Assembly (NCBI RefSeq): GCF_016908635.1
Contig: NZ_JAFBEG010000018.1
Location: 1-49,472 of the forward strand
DNA: 49,472 nucleotides
Source: Sporohalobacter salinus
GTDB taxonomy: Bacteria; Bacillota; Halanaerobiia; Halobacteroidales; Acetohalobiaceae
Direction of reading: 5' to 3'
Shown in pieces: positions 23,012 through 26,058 of the stretch. A program made the position numbers and the translations under genes. The first letter of the stretch is position 1. Each line of letters opens with the position of its first letter. The notes beneath the pieces are model-generated. The model searched no databases. It was given only the letters and a program-made list of their open reading frames with translations, and was not told the origin of the DNA.

Positions 23012-23058
23012 AACAAAGCAGTATAGACGTTTTGTCAAAACGTCTATACTGCTTTGTT
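23012..23058 (-). terminator. Very long perfect hairpin ending the first HTH gene
   Basis: A 22-23-bp perfect stem (23012-23034 with 23036-23058, tip about GTC) begins 11 bases after the stop of the HTH gene, followed on the minus strand by a T-rich tract. It insulates the tRNA promoter from upstream transcription. Confidence 0.85.
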
Positions 23059-23069
23059 GATTCCTACTA

Positions 23070-23750
23070 TTAAATAACAAACTCTCCTGGAACTACTAAT
23101 TGTACCTTATCGGCATCAAAGAAGCAATTTTCAATAGCTATTGGCATCTTGCTAACCAAAATTAAACGTTGGCTTTTAATAATCGGAGCACCGCTATCAA
23201 TACTCAGTAACTTAGCTAAAAACCGATTAGCCATCTCTACTTGCATAACATTATTTTTAAATTTCAATTTGCTAATCGAATTTTCTCCGAATAACTCATA
23301 TAATGAATTTAATTTTTGGCTTTTTTCCTCTATTATCTCCGAATCTAAGTAAGTAATTACTTCTTGAAGACCAAAGGGCTCCTCATCTACTAGCTGTTTT
23401 TGAGAAACTTTATATAATTCTTGTTCAGGATCAGTCTTTCGCAATTCCTGAAATTCTTGTTCAGTAATCTGATTAAATCTTACATCTCCAGTCTCCATTT
23501 TTCCTTTTTGATTAATCAGTCTTACCTCTGCCTTCTGCGAATTACCATCTTTTACTTGTAGTCGCTCTTCCATATTACGAGCATACTTTTCTCTAAGCTT
23601 CATCAAAGAAATATTAGCTTCAGAAAGAATAGTCCTAACATAACGTGGTGTCGTCTGAACATGTTCAGCAATATCACTAATTTTTAAAAAAGGGTCATTC
23701 TGGGCAAAATTAATTATTTGTTCTTTTTTTGTCAGTTCTTCTAGACTCAT
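23070..23750 (-). CDS. HTH regulator with UTRA-like C-terminal domain (paralogue 1)
   Basis: A 226-residue predicted transcription factor. Residues about 1-50 hold a helix-turn-helix (ISDIAEHVQTTPRYVRTILSE) followed by a conserved helix (LMKLREKYARNMEE). The rest (about 70-226) ends in a pattern like the UTRA ligand domain of GntR regulators (LLSIDSGAPIIKSQRLIL...PIAIENCFF). It shares its N-terminus almost word for word with the next gene. Start at the ATG at 23750 behind GGAGGTGG. Ligand and targets are unknown; a true GntR winged helix is not apparent. Confidence 0.7.
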   Translation of the reverse strand: MSLEELTKKEQIINFAQNDPFLKISDIAEHVQTTPRYVRTILSEANISLMKLREKYARNMEERLQVKDGNSQKAEVRLINQKGKMETGDVRFNQITEQEFQELRKTDPEQELYKVSQKQLVDEEPFGLQEVITYLDSEIIEEKSQKLNSLYELFGENSISKLKFKNNVMQVEMANRFLAKLLSIDSGAPIIKSQRLILVSKMPIAIENCFFDADKVQLVVPGEFVI

Positions 23751-23892
23751 ACTTTCCACCTCCAACTTAGATTTCCAATTACTTATTGCTTCAGCCTTAT
23801 AAATATTATCTCTTAATGAAGTTAGTTTTATACGTTAAAATATAATATTTGTTTCAACTCTTTACTAACCTTGTAGAATCTAAACCAAATAA

Positions 23893-23980: not shown

Positions 23981-24673
23981 TTATTTACTATCAAGCTGTA
24001 AAGATGCATCTTGACCAGTTAAATTAATCTGGTAATTATCACTGCGTAAATAAAGAATATCTACCCCTTTTATTTCATCATCAGATATAATTTTACGGCT
24101 AATTTTAAAAATTTGATCTTTTAGATCAATTTCTAATACTTCTGCTAAATAATAATTAGCTTCAGTAATCTCCAACATTAAACTAGTAAATTCAATATTA
24201 TCTGAATTTAATTCTAATATTTGATTTATATCTTGAATAACCTTACCTTCAGCTGATAACCAAAAAGTTGTATTAACTAAAATAGGATCGTGTTGATTAA
24301 ATAATACTAATGACTTCTGTTGAAAGTTATCATTATCAACTAGTTCTTGATAATTATTACAGTTATTCATTATAGCTCTGTCTAATTCTTTACTCCACAT
24401 CATCTCTAAGTTAGAAGTGTTAAGTACATCAACTAAGAGCCTATCCGAGGACGAATTTGATAATCTTTCCATTTTACGAGCATAATCTTCTCTTAGTTTA
24501 GTCAATGAAAGTGCAGCTTCTGATAATACCGTCCTAACATAATGAGGGGTAGTCCCTACCTTCTCTGCTAGCTCTTCTACTTTTAAAAAAGGGTCATGTT
24601 TAGCTAAATATACTACTTTTTCTTTCTTATTTAAATTCTCCATTCTCAACTTTTTATTCCCTAAACCCTGCAT
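23981..24673 (-). CDS. HTH regulator with UTRA-like C-terminal domain (paralogue 2)
   Basis: A 230-residue paralogue of the downstream gene. The N-terminus (HDPFLKVEELAEKVGTTPHY, then VRTVLSEAALSLTKLRE) matches paralogue 1 at most positions, whereas the ligand-type domain has diverged strongly, with LAEVLEIDLKDQIFKISRKI as the recognisable segment. This suggests duplication with kept DNA-binding and changed signal sensing. Start at the ATG at 24673 behind AGGGAGGGG. A promoter 210 bases upstream and a terminator-like leader suggest attenuation. Confidence 0.7.
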   Translation of the reverse strand: MQGLGNKKLRMENLNKKEKVVYLAKHDPFLKVEELAEKVGTTPHYVRTVLSEAALSLTKLREDYARKMERLSNSSSDRLLVDVLNTSNLEMMWSKELDRAIMNNCNNYQELVDNDNFQQKSLVLFNQHDPILVNTTFWLSAEGKVIQDINQILELNSDNIEFTSLMLEITEANYYLAEVLEIDLKDQIFKISRKIISDDEIKGVDILYLRSDNYQINLTGQDASLQLDSK

Positions 24674-24705
24674 CTTCTTCCCCTCCCTAACCTTCTTAAT
24701 ATAAT

Positions 24706-24767
24706 AAAAAACCCTAAGCAAAGCTCAGCTTAGAGTAAGCCTTAGAAGATGAAATCATCTTCTAAGG
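24706..24767 (-). terminator. Two hairpins with T run in the HTH-2 leader (possible attenuator)
   Basis: Going down the minus strand, a perfect 12-bp stem-loop (24767-24756 with 24751-24740) is followed by a 6-bp stem (24733-24728 with 24719-24714), then GG and six T (24711-24706). The T run ends 33 bases before the ATG. Because a promoter lies upstream, transcripts of the regulator gene would have to pass it. Confidence 0.6.
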
Positions 24768-24978: not shown

Positions 24979-26013
24979 TTATTCTCTAACTTTAATTTCT
25001 GCCTCTCCAGACATAACTTTTCCAATAATAGCAGAAGTTACATCTTTTTCTTGTAAAGCAGTTACCAATTCACCTGCTTTATCAGCAGCAATAGAAATCA
25101 AAAGTCCTCCAGAGGTCTGTGGATCAAATAATATATCCTGCTTTGCTTCTGATAATTCAACTGTAAAATCTATATACTCTTCAATATATTCATGATTACT
25201 ATAAGCACCGCCTGGTACTAATCCCATTTCTGCCCACTCTATTACTTCAGGTAGTAATGGAATCTCCGAAAAATTAACTACAGCTTGTACTCCACTAGCT
25301 GATACCAACTCCCACAGATGACCTAGTAATCCAAATCCAGTTACATCAGTAGCAGCATTAGCCCCTACTTCCTGCATAACTTCAGCAGCAGTCTTATTTA
25401 GAGTAATCATTTCCTGAATAGCAGAATTCTCTTCTCCTCCAGAGCTTAAACCTCCATTAATAGCAGTTACAGCAATTCCAATTCCTAAAGGCTTAGTCAA
25501 TATTAATTTATCTCCAGGTTTAGCCCCTGCATTTGCTACCATATCCGCTGGAGCAACTAATCCACTAGCAGAAAGACCATATTTAGGCTCATCATCCTCG
25601 ATTGTATGGCCTCCAGCTAAAATTGCTCCTGCTTCTTTAACTTTATCTGCTCCTCCCTGCATAATTTTCTCTAAAATTTCAGTATCAAGATAAGGAGGAA
25701 ATCCAACAATATTCATAGCACTCAACGGCTTACCACCCATAGCATAAATATCGCTTAAAGCATTAGCAGCTGCTACTTGTCCAAACAAATACGGATCTTC
25801 AACTACTGGAGTAAAAAAATCAAGCGATTGAATTAATGCCTGCTTCTCGTTTAATTTAATTACTGAAGCATCATCAGAAGTACTCAATCCTACTAGCTCT
25901 CGTTCATCAGTAACTGTCGGTACTGATCGCAAAACTTGCGACAAGGTCTCAGGACCTATTTTAGCTGCTCAACCGCCTCCAGCTGATAGCTGACATGCCT
26001 TCTTATCATTCAT
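24979..26013 (-). CDS. selD: Selenide, water dikinase containing selenocysteine (in-frame UGA)
   Basis: SelD makes selenophosphate, the selenium donor for selenocysteine and selenouridine. A plain ORF starts only after a TGA, giving 321 residues that lack the catalytic N-terminus. Reading through the TGA at 25969-25971 from the ATG at 26013 (ribosome site GAGGTGA) gives 344 residues, the usual length, and restores the motif SAGGG-U-AAKIGP with selenocysteine at position 15, where other SelD proteins have Cys or Sec; Lys18 is the catalytic lysine. The rest of the family pattern (ATDVTGFGLLGH, DPQTSGGLL, GGHTIEDDEPKYGLS) is intact. It follows yedF by 45 bases, a usual selenium operon. Confidence 0.95.
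25944..25971 (-). promoter_or_regulatory. Sec codon and candidate bacterial SECIS hairpin in selD
   Basis: The UGA (25971-25969) is followed 11 bases later by a small stem AGGTC/GACCT (25957-25953 with 25948-25944) and loop CTGA. Bacterial SECIS elements sit just after the UGA inside the coding region; this is the best local hairpin I see, but without folding the exact element is uncertain. Confidence 0.5.
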
Positions 26014-26058
26014 TATTTCTATTCACCTCTTTAATTAGACTATCAATTAATAATTCAA

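Follow-up and report, generated by a model that had tools for sequence, protein, structure and literature searches.

The window, a 49,472-nucleotide stretch of DNA corresponding to contig 18 of the Sporohalobacter salinus genome (2.68 Mb, a draft of 54 contigs rated 100% complete), almost certainly carries an ordinary selD gene whose product would have selenocysteine (Sec) in its active site, inserted at a UGA at codon 15 by SelA, SelB and tRNA-Sec under the guidance of a downstream hairpin. The identity of the gene, the position of its UGA, the decoding machinery and the conservation described below can each be read from the sequence, and a Sec-type SelD is an already known and common arrangement in anaerobic bacteria with selenoproteins. 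The features concerned are as follows:

24979..26013, minus strand: selD, full-length selenide, water dikinase of 344 aa via UGA readthrough (frame reading, profile, alignment)
25969..25971, minus strand: in-frame TGA at codon 15, the predicted Sec codon, pairing with Cys17 of E. coli SelD (frame reading, alignment)
26025..26031, minus strand: Shine-Dalgarno-like AGAGGTG, about 10 nt 5' of the selD ATG (sequence)
25944..25957, minus strand: shorter hairpin, AGGUC-CUGA-GACCU, the first after the UGA and immediately preceding the SECIS-like one (fold, relatives)
25926..25942, minus strand: probable bacterial SECIS hairpin, stem GUCGCAA/UUGCGAU (7 bp), loop GUU (fold, conservation, model of PMC13188914)
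26059..26652, minus strand: yedF, TusA/DsrE-type selenium metabolism protein (TIGR03527, 209 bits against a cut-off of 110)

Read through its single TGA, the complete selD frame runs from 26013 to 24979 on the minus strand, with an ATG at 26013-26011, 344 codons and a TAA stop at 24981-24979, and the TGA at codon 15 is its sole interruption. The original prediction had placed the gene and its one TGA at exactly these positions and had described an ATG with a ribosome site at the restored N-terminus. It had also held that normal ORF calling truncates selD, and the table-11 ORF listing indeed reports only a frame of 321 aa at 24979-25944 that begins at a TTG at 25944, so that the N-terminus is lost. 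The readthrough product matches the NCBIfam selD profile (TIGR00476) at 389.8 bits (cut-off 125) over profile positions 3-310 of 311, and it also matches solved SelD structures. E. coli SelD, a Cys form (PDB 3u0o), aligns over its full length at 245 bits, pairing its Cys17 with residue 15, encoded here by UGA, and its Lys20 with Lys18, such that the UGA falls, as had been proposed, at the catalytic Cys/Sec position of the SelD N-terminal loop and is followed by the conserved Lys. The gene thus belongs to the SelD family, from which we would expect its product to synthesize selenophosphate from selenide and ATP. Annotation without Sec-aware calling strips such a gene of its catalytic N-terminus, and an organism treated in this way could be mis-scored as lacking an active SelD.

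That ORF callers do report the frame from TTG 25944 might suggest that selD is a pseudogene or is used as a short functional form, a reading we judge very improbable, as the short form would be devoid of both the catalytic residue and Lys18. The protein segment before the TGA is conserved among relatives and can be aligned across genera, and a comparison with a congener (G001) reveals 22 synonymous changes against one amino-acid change in the 59 codons after the UGA. Furthermore, the genome contains a complete Sec machinery, and a genome search found no second full-length selD.

Full-length Sec-type SelD is also the prevailing form among relatives. We compared SelD across 61 related genomes, S. 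salinus included, in a tally by SelD type that was compiled by hand from SelD and tRNA-Sec searches and then tested. In 41 of the 61, SelD contains one in-frame TGA and is otherwise open, a frequency that cannot be ascribed to chance, and the TGA occupies the identical codon in every relative read out. All but one of these 41 genomes have a tRNA-Sec above cut-off, the exception (G042) being a draft of about 300 contigs. Two further genomes (G011 and G012) possess an uninterrupted SelD with TGT (Cys) at this position and are without tRNA-Sec; at the Cys-type loci L025 and L034 the codon is TGT. The remaining 18 genomes have no full-length SelD or one with an unclear N-terminus, and tRNA-Sec occurs in 2 of them. 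These data bear on the possibility that the gene is really of the Cys type and acquired its TGA through faulty sequencing or assembly. Only the draft state of the 54-contig assembly speaks for this. We regard such an error as vanishingly unlikely, given the TGA at the same codon in the congener, in other genomes of the family and in most genomes of the order, and given a SECIS-like hairpin that is present here and lost in Cys-type relatives.

The genome encodes the capacity to decode UGA as Sec. It contains one strong tRNA-Sec (70.2 bits; called by ARAGORN as tRNA-SeC with anticodon TCA, that is, UCA), selA (628.6 bits) and selB (385.9 bits), together with ybbB/selU for tRNA selenouridine (338.6 bits), the last of which indicates that this anaerobe probably uses selenium for tRNA as well as for selenoproteins. 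The absence of selA, selB or tRNA-Sec had been named in the original prediction as the main observation that would tell against it; with all three present, the prediction stands. One in-frame TGA also interrupts fdhA and each of the two grdA copies; those read lie at known Sec positions, in the context HLUHS in FdhA and CFVUTAAG in the one GrdA copy read. Combined with the Sec machinery, these codons support the claim that the organism decodes UGA as Sec. They also argue against a decoding of UGA as Trp or its nonspecific readthrough, an alternative that is exceedingly unlikely when SelD, FdhA and GrdA all have UGA where Sec is expected and tRNA-Sec, SelA and SelB are all encoded; Trp at the nucleophile position would, moreover, not be expected to function in this family. 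The claim that SelD is itself a selenoprotein is similarly supported at the genome level by tRNA-Sec, selA, selB and the SECIS-like hairpin lost in Cys relatives.

Several of these genes are clustered on contig 13, where fdhA (Sec), selA, selB and grdA (Sec) lie on the same strand within about 7 kb (G000:C13:63141-70119), selA and selB adjoining, with fdhA before and grdA after them; neither selC nor selD lies on this contig. A SelB-like match with an internal UAG (L010) proved to be an EF-Tu gene whose UAG is its normal end, and an Rfam search at gathering score, confined to the window, matched only two tRNAs and has no bearing either way. Separately, a pyrrolysyl-tRNA synthetase is found in the congener (303 bits); nothing over the cut-off was detected in the S. 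salinus genome or in three other family members, so the pyrrolysine trait seems to vary within the genus.

Bacterial SECIS elements are described as having a loop 16-37 nt after the UGA, a G in the first two loop positions, a stem of 4-16 bp and a minimum free energy of at most -7.5 kcal/mol (PMC13188914). The probable SECIS hairpin of selD has 33 nt between the UGA and a loop that begins with GU, and its loop, spacing and stem length all lie within these ranges; its energy when folded alone, -6.7 kcal/mol, falls a little short of the published cut-off of -7.5, and the 45 nt after the UGA give -12.1 kcal/mol. In a shuffle test, the fold of a 53-nt stretch around the UGA was not significant (z -0.74), and the hairpin was therefore assessed by how well it is conserved, by whether Cys forms lack it and by resampling synonymous codons. 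The congener retains it as AUCGCAA-GUU-UUGCGAU, differing in the first base of the stem. Among the 49 Sec-type SelD genes read, all seven pairs are kept in 35 and six pairs in 6 more, while three Cys-type genes keep only 2 to 4 of the seven, though the sequences are related and the counts overstate their independence. The two Cys relatives that have lost the hairpin belong to the same order. The innermost pair joins the third position of a Gln codon to the first position of a Leu codon, and the two covary: the pair is A-T in 21 sequences and G-C in 18, with no mixed cases (CAA..TTG versus CAG..CTG), in a count of 39 sequences that takes in only those whose inner stem pairs and includes many close relatives. 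When synonymous codons were resampled at the codon usage of the window, the same 7-bp stem arose in 1.5% of draws, and 0.2% matched the native local energy. These observations point to the hairpin at 25926..25942 as a probable bacterial SECIS.

The first hairpin is not Sec-specific, since L025 and L034, both Cys relatives, have it too; the second appears to act as the SECIS in this lineage. Several Clostridium SelD genes (L054, L060 and L077) are missing the second hairpin and seem to bear a GG-type loop at the first position, which raises the possibility that SelB recognition has moved. We consider it conceivable, if rather unlikely, that the recognition site shifted some 17 nt from one lineage to another or that both hairpins jointly set SelD readthrough according to selenium supply.

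Taking the second hairpin as the SECIS, Sec incorporation and SelD activity would proceed as the families of these genes predict. SelA, using selenophosphate, would convert Ser-tRNA-Sec to Sec-tRNA-Sec, which SelB would deliver to the UGA at codon 15 with the hairpin some 33 nt further downstream as its guide, and the ribosome would insert Sec and continue translation of SelD. The finished enzyme would in turn produce selenophosphate from selenide and ATP, supplying its own synthesis, that of FdhA and GrdA, and tRNA selenouridine formation through SelU/YbbB.

Sec-containing SelD ranks second in spread among prokaryotic selenoproteins. It is treated in PMC1794560 as one of the two bacterial selenoproteins with the widest distribution and is recorded there for many Clostridia, and Sec occurs in 19% of the prokaryotic SelD proteins of a reference set, always at the same position (PMC4561486). 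As Sec-SelD has long been described and is a widespread, standard family (PMC1794560, PMC4561486, PMC13188914), the present case is correct but ordinary. Known bacterial Sec-SelD proteins, such as those of Clostridioides difficile, Carboxydothermus, Moorella and Aquifex aeolicus (PDB 2yye/2zod), share with the S. salinus protein the family, the Sec position, the in-frame UGA and the downstream hairpin, and nothing of substance differs beyond the local motif, SAGGG-U-AAKIGP here versus TSG-U-AAK. The A. aeolicus enzyme natively contains Sec. A literature search for selenoproteins of Halobacteroidaceae found no publication, and our analysis confirms, at the level of the genome, selenoprotein use of selenium by this anaerobe.

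The yedF gene lies 45 nt upstream of selD and is probably on one transcript with it; a TusA-type motif precedes selD in many relatives, and the link of yedF to selenium metabolism is taken from its NCBIfam family name. Downstream of selD, two neighbouring minus-strand genes (23070-23765 and 23981-24721) are paralogues with 32% identity that have in common an N-terminal, putatively DNA-binding part; one shows a weak UTRA match, and for the other neither Pfam nor NCBIfam gave a hit. They are preceded by a perfect match to a sigma-70 type promoter (TTGACA-17-TATAAT, 24913-24885), and directly 3' of the gene at 23070-23765 is an inverted repeat whose 23-bp arms match perfectly and are separated by 1 nt (23012-23058), which is perhaps a transcription terminator.
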